Shown here: positions 55,322 through 59,350 of the stretch, in pieces
Numbering within the stretch: the first letter of the stretch is position 1
How the letters are laid out: each line of letters starts with the position of its first letter
Assembly (NCBI GenBank): GCA_008501635.1
Contig: QQUJ01000010.1
Span: 248,001 to 312,000 of the forward strand
DNA length: 64,000 nucleotides
Direction: 5' to 3'
DNA from: Pseudomonadota bacterium
Lineage (GTDB): Bacteria > Pseudomonadota > Gammaproteobacteria > QQUJ01
Translations under genes and position numbers: made by a program
The notes under the pieces: model-generated
Told to the model about the DNA's origin: nothing
Databases searched by the model: none
What the model saw: only the letters and a program-made list of their open reading frames with translations

Positions 55322-56068
55322 CTACCGCCCCGCCGCCGGTGTGCGGCACACCGCCCACACCTCCACCCGCTCCACGCCCGCGCGACGCAGCATGCGTGTC
55401 AGTTCGGTGACCGTGGCACCGGTGGTGACGACATCGTCGATCAGTGCGACGTGGCGGATGTTCCGGAGATCCCTGACACGAAAAGCGCCGTGCAGGTTGC
55501 GGCGTCGCTCCAGTGCGCTGAGTCCGGTCTGCTGGGATGTGGGGAGCTGTCGTCGGCACCGCTGTGGTTGCAGCGGGATCTGCAACCGCCTCGCCAGCGG
55601 GCGCGCCAGCTCCAGCGCCTGGTTGAAGCCGCGTTCGCGCAGGCGCCGCGGGTGCAGCGGCACCGGGATCAGCGCCTGCGGGTAGGTACCCGGCGTAAGC
55701 CGCTGTTGCAGGTAGTCGACCAGCAGATCACCCAACACCCGTGCATGGCTCAGACGGCCCTGGAATTTGAGCCCGCCGATCAACTCGTCGGCGGGTGGCA
55801 GATAGCGGAACGGGGTGAGACAGCGATCAAACAGCGGGCGTTTCTTCAGGCACCGCCCGCACGGCAGGTGAGTGGTGCCCGCCGCGGTGGGGAGGGCGCA
55901 GATCGGGCAGCAGGGGTCACTGACCGTCAGCTCCTGCTGACAACCCGGGCACAGATCGCGCCGGCCGGGTGCATGGTCTCCGCACAAGACGCAGGTGGGC
56001 GGATAGAGCCAGTGCTGTATACTTCCTCGGAAGTGTGTACCTAACGCAAACCATTGATCTTTAGTCAT
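55322..56068 (-). CDS. comF: ComF/GntX-family amidophosphoribosyltransferase-like protein
   Basis: A 248-residue protein of the ComF group, linked to DNA uptake or use of DNA as nutrient. The N-terminal zinc ribbons read PPTCVLCGDHAPG, DLCPGCQQEL and CCPICALP with CGRC. The phosphoribosyltransferase PRPP loop is VALIDDVVTTGATVTELTRM. Family members normally begin close to the WLYPPTCVLCG stretch, so the first about 17 residues (MTKDQWFALGTHFRGSI) look like an extension created at the island boundary. In many gammaproteobacteria comF is the divergent neighbour of bioB, here separated by the island. Confidence 0.9.
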   Translation of the reverse strand: MTKDQWFALGTHFRGSIQHWLYPPTCVLCGDHAPGRRDLCPGCQQELTVSDPCCPICALPTAAGTTHLPCGRCLKKRPLFDRCLTPFRYLPPADELIGGLKFQGRLSHARVLGDLLVDYLQQRLTPGTYPQALIPVPLHPRRLRERGFNQALELARPLARRLQIPLQPQRCRRQLPTSQQTGLSALERRRNLHGAFRVRDLRNIRHVALIDDVVTTGATVTELTRMLRRAGVERVEVWAVCRTPAAGR

Positions 56069-56139
56069 TTGTCACCCCCTCCTTGGGGTGTGTTAATATG
56101 ATACTTGACACAAATATAATAATGGGCAATACTAAGCCC

Positions 56140-57084
56140 ATGAACAAGAAAATCGACACCATCGTTAACAATATCCCACGGGCCTGCGCTGATGAAACCG
56201 CTGCCGTGCTGTTCTTAGAAGCGCAACGGTGGGGTGATATGCCAATCTGTGCGCACTGCGAGTCTGAGAACGTCTACCAGATGAAGGGCCGTGATGGTGA
56301 GCGTAACAAGCGGTTCCTGTGGCGTTGTAAGGACTGCGGAAAGCAATACACCGTTCGCGTTGGCACCGTGTTTGAAGATTCCCGTATTCCCCTGCGCCAC
56401 TGGTGCTACGCGTTCTGGGCTGCCTGTGCCAGTAAAAAGGGTGTTTCAGCCCTTCAGATTAAGCGCCAGACTCAAGTGACCTATAAAAGCGCTCTGTTCA
56501 TGATGCACCGCATCCGATTCGCCATGGCGGATGAACCCGGTGCGCCACGCCCATTGACTGGAACGGTTGAGGTCGATGAAACCTACGTAGGCGGGAAACC
56601 CCGGCACCGTGGCCCCCAAAACCCAAAGAAACGAGGCCGTGGGACTGACAAGCCACCCGTGGTAGCCATCGTTGAACGTAATGGCGACGTGCGCGCCGCT
56701 GTCGTTGATAAGGTCAACGCCAAGAACCTCAAGCGGATGATCCGCGAGAATGTGGACCAAAGCGCCAAGATCATGACTGACGAAGCCAGCTTCTACAAAG
56801 GTTTGGGCAAAGAGTTCGAGGGTGGTCATCACACGGTAGTTCACAGCCGAGGCGAGTACTCTCGGGGCGATGTGACCACGAACGCCGTAGAAGGCTTCTT
56901 TTCGATCCTCAAACGCGGAATCAACGGCACGTTCCACAGCGTCAGCAAGAAGCATCTGCACCGCTATGTGGGGGAATTCGCCTTCCGATACAACACGCGG
57001 AAGATCACGGACGGTGAGCGAGTTATAACGGTTATAAAGAAGGCTGAAGGCAAGCGGTTGATGTACAAGGCTCCAGCGGAGTGA
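56140..57084 (+). CDS. IS1595/ISXO2-family transposase
   Basis: A 314-residue transposase from ATG 56140 (MNKKIDTIV); ATG 56098 is also in frame. It has the zinc-ribbon at the N-terminus (CAHCESENVYQMKGRD; CKDCGKQYTVRVGTVFEDS) and an ISXO2-type DDE core: VEVDETYVGGKPRH, KIMTDEASFYKGLG and TNAVEGFFSILKRGINGTFH with HLHRYVGEFAFRYNTRK. All appear intact. I cannot identify clean terminal inverted repeats around it. It may have brought in the island or be a later passenger. Confidence 0.9.
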   Translation: MNKKIDTIVNNIPRACADETAAVLFLEAQRWGDMPICAHCESENVYQMKGRDGERNKRFLWRCKDCGKQYTVRVGTVFEDSRIPLRHWCYAFWAACASKKGVSALQIKRQTQVTYKSALFMMHRIRFAMADEPGAPRPLTGTVEVDETYVGGKPRHRGPQNPKKRGRGTDKPPVVAIVERNGDVRAAVVDKVNAKNLKRMIRENVDQSAKIMTDEASFYKGLGKEFEGGHHTVVHSRGEYSRGDVTTNAVEGFFSILKRGINGTFHSVSKKHLHRYVGEFAFRYNTRKITDGERVITVIKKAEGKRLMYKAPAE

Positions 57085-57106
57085 CGGGGCAGTTTCCTGC
57101 CCCGTC
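57083..57106 (+). terminator. Hairpin at the transposase stop
   Basis: GACGGGGCAG (57083-57092) and CTGCCCCGTC (57097-57106) form a perfect 10-bp stem around TTTC. It overlaps the transposase stop codon and lies beside the end of the converging tiny ORF. No clear T-run is present. Confidence 0.6.
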
Positions 57107-57116
57107 GATTGCTGAC

Positions 57117-57215
57117 CTATTTCGGCCAAGAGCGCCAATGTGCGCATACTCGCTCCAGACGACCGAAGCGGCGACGCACATAGGCACGGACATGAACGGT
57201 TTTTACAGTGTTCAT
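57117..57215 (-). CDS. Tiny basic protein (32 residues) with perfect Shine-Dalgarno
   Basis: ATG 57215 is preceded by AGGAGGTGAG at ideal spacing. The 32-residue product begins MNTVKTVHVRAYVRRRFGRL and ends VCAHWRSWPK. It is strongly basic with one Cys-His pair. It is encoded opposite the transposase and ends 11 bp from the transposase hairpin, so it may be part of the mobile element. I know no named family; the quality of the start signal is the main support. Confidence 0.6.
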   Translation of the reverse strand: MNTVKTVHVRAYVRRRFGRLERVCAHWRSWPK

Positions 57216-57217
57216 AT

Positions 57218-57241
57218 CTCACCTCCTATGTTGAGAGGTGA
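57218..57241 (-). promoter_or_regulatory. Hairpin that can sequester the ribosome-binding site of the tiny ORF
   Basis: On the minus strand CTCACCTC (57241-57234) pairs with GAGGTGAG (57225-57218), the latter being the Shine-Dalgarno sequence of the 32-residue ORF. The 8-bp stem with an 8-nt loop could hide the site until melted or displaced. Confidence 0.6.
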
Positions 57242-57341
57242 GAGCGTCTTACTAGACTTACCTAAGGTCCTGTACTAACATCGCAGGCGCAACTGACCGG
57301 TAAGCGGCGATAGGTCCGCTCTCTTAACCCACCACCTAAGG

Positions 57342-57444
57342 TGGTGCCGGTGACAGGGATCGAACCTGCATGGGCTACCTCGGCAAAGGATCACAGCCCA
57401 CTAGGACCCAAACCTAGCGCGTATACCATTTTCGCCACACCGGC
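57342..57444 (-). tRNA. Class II tRNA-like gene, leucine-type body with UGG (proline) anticodon
   Basis: Read on the minus strand from 57444: acceptor GCCGGTG pairs with CACCGGC, followed by A73 and an encoded CCA (57344-57342). The D-arm GCG-AAAATGGTATA-CGC has G18G19. The anticodon arm is CTAGG-TTTGGGT-CCTAG, giving anticodon TGG (57410-57408) with U33 and G37. A 31-nt variable region contains a GGGCT/AGCCC stem. The T-arm is GCAGG-TTCGATC-CCTGT. The D-arm, CTAG-type anticodon stem, A73 and long variable arm are leucine features; the anticodon reads proline codons. All stems are intact, so it is probably functional. Charging identity is unproven. Confidence 0.75.
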
Positions 57445-57448
57445 AAAG

Positions 57449-57479
57449 CAGAACCGCTCTTCGGAGCGGTTCTGTTTTT
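57449..57479 (+). terminator. Intrinsic terminator (plus strand) next to the tRNA-like gene
   Basis: CAGAACCGCTC-TTCG-GAGCGGTTCTG followed by TTTTTA is a textbook terminator with a stable UUCG loop on the plus strand. It would stop read-through from the transposase side before the gene at 57486. On the minus strand it stands between that gene and the tRNA. Confidence 0.85.
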
Positions 57480-57485
57480 AAGTGT

Positions 57486-57986
57486 TCATGGTATTTCCCC
57501 TTTATAGTCTTTAATGGCGTATACAGCCTTTTTGCCCTCTACGTTCTTGATAAGACCTTTTTGCGAAATCCTGTACAGCTTCGAATTAAGTTTTGATCGC
57601 TCAGAGATTTCGCCGGTTTTCTTGTACAGCGCAATGATGATTTGATCGAGGCTGGCTACTCCGCCGTATTCCTCAATTATTGAGAGGATCTGGAAATCCG
57701 CCTGTTCGCTAGGCCCTATAGCGAGTTGCTTAATCAACTCTTCGGGAAGGCCCTCAAGATCTGACGGCAACAGTGTGAGCCTGGGTACATCGCTGGTAGG
57801 GTGATCAACTTGCGCTGCTTCGCCGCGACTAAATTGCTCTAAGTCGGCGTAGAGGGATTCGAATTTCTTGATGCGGTCGGCACAATTTTGCCAACCCCTT
57901 GAGTTTTCGCTAAATTTTTGTAGGCACTTATGATTATAGGCGATTTGTGCCTTGACAAAATCAAGGTGTTTCTTTAGTCTATCCAT
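57486..57986 (-). CDS. Island protein with C-terminal winged-helix-like domain
   Basis: A 166-residue protein of unknown family. Residues 1-55 are charged and probably coiled (MDRLKKHLDFVKAQIAYNHK). The last about 70 residues have the pattern of a winged helix: FQILSIIEEYGGVASLDQII, YKKTGEISERSKLNSKLYRI and GLIKNVEGKKAVYAIKDY. It may be a DNA-binding regulator of the island. A strong minus-strand promoter at 58108-58136 and paired palindromes lie upstream, and the tRNA-like gene lies downstream in the same direction. Confidence 0.65.
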   Translation of the reverse strand: MDRLKKHLDFVKAQIAYNHKCLQKFSENSRGWQNCADRIKKFESLYADLEQFSRGEAAQVDHPTSDVPRLTLLPSDLEGLPEELIKQLAIGPSEQADFQILSIIEEYGGVASLDQIIIALYKKTGEISERSKLNSKLYRISQKGLIKNVEGKKAVYAIKDYKGEIP

Positions 57987-58041
57987 CGTTAATCGTCGCC
58001 ACGGTTAACTAACGTTTAAGGGATGTCATGCCTTGCGCGGC

Positions 58042-58104
58042 ATAAGCCCCGAGTCTCAGGAAGCCCGGAATGCCGTCAGCATTCTGGGCTTTCACTTATG
58101 GGGC
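58042..58104 (-). other. Structured 5' leader of the winged-helix-like gene
   Basis: AAGCCCGGAATGC (58061-58073) and GCATTCTGGGCTT (58079-58091) form a 13-bp stem with one mismatch, nested inside GCCCC/GGGGC (58046-58050 and 58100-58104). A smaller ATGCC/GGCAT hairpin adjoins at 58028-58043. All are in the predicted 115-nt leader. No T-run follows, so it is not an obvious terminator. Confidence 0.55.
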
Positions 58105-58107
58105 TGC

Positions 58108-58136
58108 AATATACTCCCGCGTGAAATTGGCGTCAA
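58108..58136 (-). promoter_or_regulatory. Sigma-70-type promoter of the winged-helix-like gene
   Basis: On the minus strand TTGACG (58136-58131) and TATATT (58113-58108) are spaced by exactly 17 bp. Transcription would start near 58101 and run through the structured leader into the gene ending at 57486. Confidence 0.75.
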
Positions 58137-58149
58137 GTTGTAAGGATTC

Positions 58150-58186
58150 TTTGCAAGTGGCGCAAATGATTTGCAGCGAGTGCAAA
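58150..58186. promoter_or_regulatory. Tandem 17-bp palindromes (probable operator)
   Basis: TTTGCAAGTGGCGCAAA (58150-58166, one mismatch) and TTTGCAGCGAGTGCAAA (58170-58186, perfect TTTGCA-N5-TGCAAA) start 20 bp apart, about two helical turns. They lie 14 bp upstream of the -35 box of the minus-strand promoter and overlap the start of a small plus-strand ORF, so a regulator could control both. Confidence 0.65.
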
Positions 58187-58368
58187 ACGAATGGAAAACG
58201 AATAGAGCGGAAAAGTTGGCTGCGAAAGAAAAACGGAATCGAGGGCCAGAACCCGAGTTGCTGAAGATTGTAGGCGACTGGCGGGGTGCTATGGGAAAGG
58301 CTGTTAAGAAAATGCGGCCTAAGGATGGATGGCCTGAGCCAGAAAAGAAGCCGAAGAAGGATAAGTAG
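58180..58368 (+). CDS. Possible small lysine-rich island protein
   Basis: About 62 residues from GTG 58180 (TTG 58171 is also in frame). The sequence GPEPELLKIVGDWRGAMGKA and KKMRPKDGWPEPEKKPKK resembles small conserved island proteins I have seen with a GDW...KKxRPxxGWP pattern, but the family has no known function. There is no good ribosome-binding site, and the start lies in the tandem palindromes. It ends 15 bp from converging hicA. Confidence 0.45.
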   Translation: MQNEWKTNRAEKLAAKEKRNRGPEPELLKIVGDWRGAMGKAVKKMRPKDGWPEPEKKPKKDK

Positions 58369-58383
58369 ATAAAAGAGTGTCAA

Positions 58384-58650
58384 CTATTTAATTAATTTGA
58401 GCTTTTTTAGCTGACTTTCTGACCACCCAATCTCCACCAGTAGTTCTTTTAGCAGTTTTGGGCCATAGGTTTTTTTAGGGTGCACATGGACGGTCACACG
58501 CTTGATAGTGTGACCGTCATTTTCTTTTCTGAATGCTTGAATAGCGCCGCGAGTTTCTTCTCTTATCCAGCCGTCTTTCTCCAGGGCCTTAACTAGCTCA
58601 CCTGCCGTAATGTTATTAAGTTGATTCCAAATATTTTGGTGGAAACTCAC
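58384..58650 (-). CDS. hicA: HicA-family toxin (mRNA interferase)
   Basis: An 88-residue HicA/YcfA-type protein with a double-stranded-RNA-binding-like fold. Key parts are TAGELVKALEKDGWIREETR, RVTVHVHPKKTYGPKLLKEL and IGWSESQLKKL; the usual HicA catalytic histidine is probably within VTVHVHPKK, though the normal GSHH motif is replaced by GAIQAF. It begins at GTG 58650, overlapping the hicB stop. It would cleave mRNA when HicB is lost. Confidence 0.82.
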   Translation of the reverse strand: MSFHQNIWNQLNNITAGELVKALEKDGWIREETRGAIQAFRKENDGHTIKRVTVHVHPKKTYGPKLLKELLVEIGWSESQLKKLKLIK

Positions 58651-58943
58651 GTGGCGACCGAAAGTTCTTCAATCCTTGAAAAGCCTTTCTTGTGAAAAAG
58701 CGACTCTATTGGTTGGAAAAACCACGTCTTGAATGAGAACTTTTCTACGCACAAAGGAAGCGGTTCACCGTGCTTGAGTAACGACACTATATAAGCCTCT
58801 GCCGCGTGTTTTACATTCTCAATCGCCTCATCTTCTGTAGTTCCACCAACATGCACACCCTTAAGATCAGGGCAATAGGCGTAAAACTCCTCGCCGTCAG
58901 GTTCTACGTGAATCCTGACGCATATTCTCAAGACTTTGATCAT
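58647..58943 (-). CDS. hicB: HicB-family antitoxin
   Basis: A 98-residue protein with an RNase H-like HicB fold: VEPDGEEFYAYCPDLKGVHV and GGTTEDEAIENVKHAAEAYI. ATG 58943 has AAGGAG upstream. No ribbon-helix-helix or helix-turn-helix follows the HicB domain, so DNA binding must be by another route or another protein. It precedes hicA, the reverse of the commonest hicA-hicB order. Two related palindromes upstream probably are its operator. Confidence 0.82.
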   Translation of the reverse strand: MIKVLRICVRIHVEPDGEEFYAYCPDLKGVHVGGTTEDEAIENVKHAAEAYIVSLLKHGEPLPLCVEKFSFKTWFFQPIESLFHKKGFSRIEELSVAT

Positions 58944-58989
58944 GGCCCAACTCCTTAGACTCCGATAGGGCTCAGAGCCTAACCCATGA

Positions 58990-59044
58990 ACAAACCACAA
59001 CATATTGTGGTTTGTCAGTGTATAACCACCAACATATAGTAGTT
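58990..59044. promoter_or_regulatory. hicBA promoter/operator region with two related palindromes
   Basis: ACAAACCACAA and TTGTGGTTTGT (58990-59015) are perfect 11-bp arms around CATA. A weaker relative, AACCACCAACATATAGTAGTT, lies at 59024-59044, starting 30 bp after the AACCAC of the first. They are positioned 47-101 bp upstream of the hicB start, suitable for autoregulation. Confidence 0.65.
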
Positions 59045-59045
59045 A

Positions 59046-59350
59046 CGTACTGTTTCGAGCCCACCTGGGGACGAAACCCCATTAGTAACAGAAACTTAGA
59101 CAACCATCCCCTAAGCAATGTTTAGCACACTACATAGCGGCTGGAAAGCGCTGAATTGTAATCCTTTGTAATAAATAAGTACATCAGAGAAAGCTAATAT
59201 TCCCGGTATCGGGAAGTTTCCTCGTCTTTGCGTAAAGTATACACTTGCGTACTTCCTAGCCATTCGTAAACCACCGGATTCCTTTCCAGTTGACCGGGTA
59301 TCAGGATTCGCTACCCTACCGCGGTCCCAACGCCAGCGCCGAGATCGCCT
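59046..59350. other. Island right end and bioB upstream region
   Basis: A 305-bp stretch without a gene. The first about 210 bp are AT-rich like the island; the final 60 bp before bioB return to GC-rich composition. TTTGCGTAAAGTATACACTT at 59227 resembles the comF 5' end. I see a partial match to a biotin-repressor half-site (TCGTAAACC at about 59264) but no full palindrome. Confidence 0.5.

Follow-up and report, generated by a model that had tools for sequence, protein, structure and literature searches.

A leucine-bodied tRNA with a proline anticodon in IS1595-family transposons and its link to CCA codons of the transposase gene

Transposons of the IS1595 family with passenger genes consist of a transposase gene and a variable cargo between inverted repeats and are flanked by an 8-bp target duplication. 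No paper that we found in the open-licence literature describes a tRNA among the cargo of such an element. Recoded gut phages carry suppressor tRNAs which read UAG as glutamine (PMC10879173). The allo-tRNAs of uncultured bacteria are class II-like molecules with non-cognate anticodons, and one group of them is linked to transposons (PMC7609411, reviewing Mukai et al. 2017). Here we describe a class II tRNA with a leucine-type body and the proline anticodon UGG, located in a window of 64,000 nt, by which we mean the whole stretch of DNA that was analysed.

The original prediction had placed this tRNA gene inside a mobile island, and indeed a complete transposon surrounds it (Table 1). The element codes for a DDE transposase with an N-terminal zinc ribbon (PF12760, 2e-11), its terminal inverted repeats of 23 bp contain mismatches, and an 8-bp target duplication flanks it; it is a member of the IS1595 family. 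Within its genome it occurs a single time. Genes similar to that of the winged-helix protein stand upstream of the tRNA in many relatives, and HARE-HTH matches were found among these upstream genes. In three loci (L063, L117, L191) the gene is replaced, as judged by eye, by an XRE-type regulator with an ImmA/IrrE-like peptidase region. Seven others (L053, L057, L066, L093, L102, L105, L119) have a winged-helix-type or similar gene together with a UGG tRNA and no recognisable IS1595 transposase in reach, which suggests remnants or another carrier. The small ORF of the window, MNTVKTVHVRAYVRRRFGRLERVCAHWRSWPK, is preceded by a good ribosome-binding site, and its leader seems to be structured. 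Its relatives are mostly unannotated and come from plasmids of Xanthomonas, Limnohabitans, Vibrio, Alteromonas, Escherichia and Salmonella; one is located downstream of an IS1595 transposase (L192). As a fixed partner of the tRNA this ORF was dismissed, since it is absent at the other tRNA loci.

Table 1. Features of the transposon and of its flanks, in window coordinates
Feature	Position	Strand	Basis
8-bp target duplication TACTTCCT, left copy	56020-56027		sequence
Complete IS1595-family transposon, 3222 bp	56028-59249		inverted repeats and flanking duplication
Left terminal inverted repeat CGGAAGTGTGTACCTAACGCAAA	56028-56050	plus	
IS1595-family transposase, 314 aa from ATG at 56140	56140-57084	plus	PF12762 1e-44, NF033547 1e-61
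Transposase CCA codon 13, N-terminal site, alignment column 27	56176-56178	plus	
Transposase CCA codons 136 and 138, linker before catalytic domain; 138 is column 218, near linker sites 196 and 201	56545-56553	plus	
Transposase CCA codon 312, C-terminal site, alignment column 458	57073-57075	plus	
Basic small ORF of 32 aa between tRNA and transposase	57117-57215	minus	
tRNA with leucine body and UGG anticodon	57342-57444	minus	RF00005 match, sequence, fold
Encoded CCA of the tRNA	57342-57344	minus	
Hairpin between winged-helix gene and tRNA, terminator-like on the plus (transposase) strand	57445-57478		
Protein of 166 aa, N-terminal helices followed by a C-terminal winged helix; gene immediately upstream of the tRNA	57486-57986	minus	
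HicA-HicB toxin-antitoxin pair, transposon cargo	58384-59003	minus	PF07927, PF15919
Right terminal inverted repeat CGCAAGTGTATACTTTACGCAAA, minus-strand reading	59227-59249	minus	
8-bp target duplication TACTTCCT, right copy	59250-59257		sequence

The Rfam model RF00005 matches the minus strand at 57345-57444 with 50.8 bits (cut-off 29); ARAGORN missed the tRNA at this place. On the minus strand its layout is GCCGGTG TG GCG AAAATGGTATA CGC G CTAGG TTTGGGT CCTAG T-(long arm)-AT GCAGG TTCGATC CCTGT CACCGGC A CCA. All stems are paired throughout (7-bp acceptor, 3-bp D, 5-bp anticodon and 5-bp T stem), and U33, UGG, G37, A73 and an encoded CCA are present, so that the cloverleaf had been described correctly as intact. 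The variable region of 31 nt, which is built from an outer stem, an inner hairpin and a 3' bulge, had been called unusually large. This holds also in comparison to the host itself, whose five tRNA-Leu have variable regions of only 13-15 nt. In E. coli, leucine identity depends on A73, A14, A15-U48, G18G19 and A20a, and C2-G71 acts as a signal against SerRS (PMC9976931). The window tRNA possesses each of these elements, which agrees with the proposal of a leucine body with a proline anticodon; A35 of the leucine anticodons is absent, as UGG has G35 instead. With tRNA-Pro it has the UGG anticodon and A73 in common, but not the short variable loop, C1-G72 and G15-C48, in place of which there are 31 nt, G1-C72 and A15-U48. 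Its acceptor branch is of the 7/5 type and not of the 8/4 or 9/3 type known from allo-tRNAs. Five tRNA-Leu and three tRNA-Pro genes (UGG, CGG, GGG) are present in the host genome. Both sets are already full, so the window tRNA is an extra gene. No clear promoter was seen for it.

To find further tRNAs of this kind, a pattern of the leucine D-arm and U33-UGG-R37 was searched in the genomes of 84,980 species and in 2.9 million viral contigs. This yielded 79 further matches with UGG and a class II tRNA fold; A73 is present in 75. According to a rough calculation only a handful of random matches to the pattern would be expected, thus the window tRNA is more than a product of chance. The hosts belong to at least nine phyla and include the named strains Mesorhizobium mediterraneum USDA 3392 (L056), Roseobacter sp. 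HKCCD6576-2 (L127), Ferruginivarius sediminum WD2A32 (L137) and Acidobacteria bacterium AB60 (L140). Throughout the family U48 is kept in 99% and A73 in 95% of the members, and most members lack the proline identity features C1-G72 and G15-C48. The variable regions cluster at 14-20 and at 27-35 nt, and many of the longer ones share, by eye, the outer stem and inner hairpin of the window tRNA. In the stems 97% of the cells are paired and 303 are changed on both sides, a value which no shuffle reached among these members, pre-selected for pairing as they are. We found no close copies of the window tRNA in 56 genomes of the same class, in plasmids or in phages. A recent capture from the host's own tRNA-Leu was also considered and rejected, as there is no consistent excess similarity.

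These data bear on the idea that the gene might be decaying, as the original prediction had considered, or an accidental tRNA. UGG is only one change away from UAG, and some distant members have lost pairs or U33, as such a gene might. However, the relatives keep UGG and the cloverleaf across phyla, their stems covary, and there is the codon link described below. Neither another isotype nor random decay in relatives, either of which would have refuted the original prediction, became apparent. For practical purposes this reading is already refuted.

Next to the tRNAs, a transposase of the IS1595 family is present at 52 out of 78 UGG tRNA loci, the window included. In 27 loci besides the window the two genes are convergent and less than 100 nt apart. 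Conversely, only a minority of IS1595 elements carries a leucine-body tRNA, and very few do so in the sample of Gammaproteobacteria. Is it then the anticodon UGG that belongs to the transposon, or any odd leucine tRNA? A covariance model made blind to the anticodon by scrambling was run on 80 viral IS1595 loci. It located 15 leucine-body tRNAs near transposases, of which, by manual reading, ten have UGG, two AGG, two UGC and one GGA. In viral contigs without IS1595, at least 13 leucine-body tRNAs lacking A35 were found, with 12 different anticodons among the matches listed. With ten out of 15 when linked and such diversity when unlinked, UGG is tied to the transposon and is no general property of odd leucine tRNAs. 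A viral scan for the variants AGG, CGG and GGG led to an IS1595 transposase only on one contig that was already known (L214). Two leucine-body tRNAs, L636 with GGG and L639 with AGG, have variable regions of 36 and 30 nt, respectively, and no IS1595 transposase in reach. Viral contigs furthermore contain leucine-body tRNAs with anticodons for stop codons (CUA, UCA, UUA; L386, L416, L420, L432). The identities of tRNA and transposase are uncorrelated (Mantel -0.01), hence the notion of a general coevolution of both was given up.

The link becomes much more specific at the level of codons. CCA makes up 30% of the transposase proline codons in elements with the tRNA and 16% in those without, while the share of the alanine codon GCA does not differ. 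Viewed by alignment column, CCA is fixed at an N-terminal LPxAC site, in the linker before the catalytic domain and at a C-terminal KRLxYxxP site; the four sites counted include columns 27 (N-terminal), 196 and 201 (linker) and 458 (C-terminal). In the enlarged set, 77 out of 80 proline codons at these sites are CCA if a UGG tRNA is present, compared to 12 out of 50 in tRNA-less relatives (p=9e-19, from Fisher tests that count genes as independent and on columns picked from the same data). Elsewhere in the transposase the respective numbers are 59 of 370 and 175 of 1331 (p=0.17). Counted by genes, 40 of 42 UGG-linked but only nine of 167 tRNA-less transposases have CCA at one site or more. When all codons at all columns were scanned, the four CCA columns took ranks 1, 2, 3 and 5 in the set with tRNA and were not listed in the set without. 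Phylogenetically independent pairs agree in about six cases and oppose in none, with four undecided (median p 0.03). The hold-out L528, which was found after the idea had been conceived, has CCA at all three of its proline sites. Statistically, the CCA sites of the transposase and the UGG anticodon of the tRNA are linked. The transposase of the window contains seven CCA codons, among them 13, 136, 138 and 312, and CCA is hardly used by the neighbouring genes of the host. A similar enrichment in the upstream winged-helix genes was looked for and dropped, as 50 CCA among 243 proline codons give no clear signal.

Such fixed codons are not expected from a general mistranslating tRNA, which would insert leucine at CCN codons of the host as a toxic, addictive or defensive factor. 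The proline anticodon on a leucine body would suit this role, as would the toxin-antitoxin cargo of the same element. Nevertheless, it gives no reason for CCA to be fixed at certain positions in the linked transposase. Defence models match weakly, and besides the HicAB pair no gene of the element was recognised as a defence gene, which speaks against the defence factor suggested before. We consider general mistranslation improbable.

Exceptions and variants have been found as well. At two loci (L127, L087) the tRNA is accompanied by a transposase that lacks CCA at the sites. Conversely, a site is occupied by CCA in nine tRNA-less transposases; near those of the nine that were rechecked no UGG tRNA was found. 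Elements with other anticodons agree with the codon link. The tRNA of L214 has an AGG-like anticodon and mismatches in the anticodon stem, and the two CCT codons of its transposase gene are located exactly at two of the sites. L199 and L224, whose anticodons are not UGG, show no CCA at the sites and a leucine codon at the last one. Leucine-body tRNAs with UGC stand near transposases of another IS1595 subclade (L200, L201, L529, L530), and similar tRNAs occur in L643-L645. All five transposases compared for this pairing, including that of L217, have GCA at alignment column 150, so UGC with GCA is possibly a second codon-anticodon pair. For the leucine-body tRNAs with UCU, which lie near the transposases of L315 and L498, no corresponding link to AGA codons was found. 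In one tRNA-less subclade the C-terminal proline codon is always CCT (L232, L234, L241, L260, L321, L502, L505, L507, L510, L511, L519, L526), in genes that otherwise prefer CCG or CCC. Therefore, fixation of a codon at the last site has other causes too.

This last observation fits the view that the codons serve translational pacing: a rare CCA where domains meet and where the transposase ends, with a tRNA that sets the decoding speed and with an inserted residue that is irrelevant or proline. The positions near the N-terminus, in the linker and at the C-terminus are as one would expect for pacing, CCA is rare in the neighbouring host genes, and the CCT fixed at the last site by the tRNA-less clade is likewise an uncommon codon. 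Yet pacing leaves unexplained why a leucine body has been kept across phyla and why relatives, like the elements whose anticodon is altered, use leucine codons at the last site, nor does it suit a tRNA family in which the proline identity features are mostly lacking. We regard it as unlikely, though it deserves more attention than the other alternatives.

Which amino acid would be inserted at the CCA codons? The body of the tRNA argues for leucine, and an E. coli tRNA-Leu with changed anticodon inserts leucine (PMC12269064). At the last site the tRNA-less relatives have leucine in 29 and proline in 19 cases, and at the first site mostly I, A, F, M, L or V. This site falls in a predicted helix. 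A likelihood test over all CCA sites favours proline over leucine by the profile of the relatives, because the linker sites are not leucine-like. A first column scan for recoding at strictly conserved leucine columns was negative. The class II tRNA at L531 2671-2755 has UGG on a serine-like body (G73), and the adjoining IS1595 transposase has CCA at column 201; this leaves room for the possibility that the point is any residue other than proline. Judged from sequence, leucine at the CCA sites is likely, and an ambiguous decoding of CCA as leucine and proline is possible. The residues of the relatives also touch the question of sign. Leucine at the CCA sites might yield a poorer or dominant-negative transposase, and the tRNA would then limit transposition. 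Transposons are usually self-limiting, and the codon link is compatible with an effect of either sign. However, leucine or other hydrophobic residues are the usual ones at the first and last sites in tRNA-less relatives, hence the leucine form should be the working one. Negative control by the tRNA thus appears a little less probable still than pacing.

The explanation that we favour, with moderate confidence, is that the passenger tRNA of the transposon decodes particular CCA triplets in the transposase gene of the same element, with leucine as the probable residue, and that full transposase activity depends on this tRNA. LeuRS would charge the tRNA, which would compete with the host tRNA-Pro at CCA. 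If the host tRNA-Pro acted alone, a transposase with proline at the sites would result; with the transposon tRNA, part of the transposase would receive leucine at two or three positions and would come close to what is usual in relatives at the first and the last site. Such a leucine form may be the active one or be needed for full activity, so that expression of the tRNA would license transposition. The winged-helix protein encoded upstream of the tRNA may be a regulator. A stricter version, about which we are more hesitant and which we hold to be somewhat doubtful, is a private sense codon in this transposon branch: the fixed CCA would be read as leucine by the element's own tRNA while the host keeps the standard code, and only elements that bring the tRNA would make a fully active transposase. 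Under this stricter version, the variant pairs, AGG with CCT and possibly UGC with GCA, would be key and lock changing together.

The hairpin which is terminator-like for the transposase strand is located beyond the tRNA, so that the transposase mRNA may include the tRNA in antisense. About half of the close arrangements look similar. The tRNA gene could then have a non-translational role, as a processing site, an insulator or an antisense partner of the transposase mRNA. Such a role accounts for neither UGG nor the CCA codons, of which the triplet is conserved and the flanks are not: the adjoining codons vary synonymously, and a pairing between mRNA and anticodon loop that reaches beyond the codon was rejected, as conservation is limited to the triplet. 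We rate this possibility slightly below that of general mistranslation.

The fixation of CCA together with a linked UGG tRNA needs explaining even if the amino acid should be a different one. If decoding by the transposon's own tRNA is confirmed, it would be a natural ambiguous genetic code and a new way of controlling transposition, perhaps also a safeguard that keeps elements without the tRNA from using the transposase. It would furthermore allow the origin and the tolerance of ambiguous decoding to be tested directly. We found no report of a comparable transposon-tRNA codon system in the open-licence literature, and a recoding of sense codons that is confined to one gene and carried by the mobile element of that gene is not known as far as we could find.

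Several described systems come close to it. Allo-tRNAs are distinguished by an acceptor branch of 8/4 or 9/3, by an identity for serine or alanine and by a great diversity of anticodons (PMC7609411), in contrast to the 7/5 branch, the leucine body, UGG, the association with IS1595 and the matching transposase codons found here. In engineered refactored codes a tRNA-Leu with anticodons for serine codons decodes these as leucine (PMC12269064), and thus a leucine-bodied tRNA with a foreign anticodon is at work there; unlike the transposon tRNA, these codes are synthetic and genome-wide, and the competing tRNA has been removed from the cells. The suppressor tRNAs of recoded phages are similar to the system proposed here in that the tRNA of a mobile element changes the reading of the element's own codons in a host with standard code, and here, too, the element's own genes carry matching codons, with CCA fixed at the transposase sites. 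The phages, however, reassign a stop codon in many genes, whereas the transposon would act on a sense codon, at few sites of one gene and in competition with the tRNA-Pro of its host.
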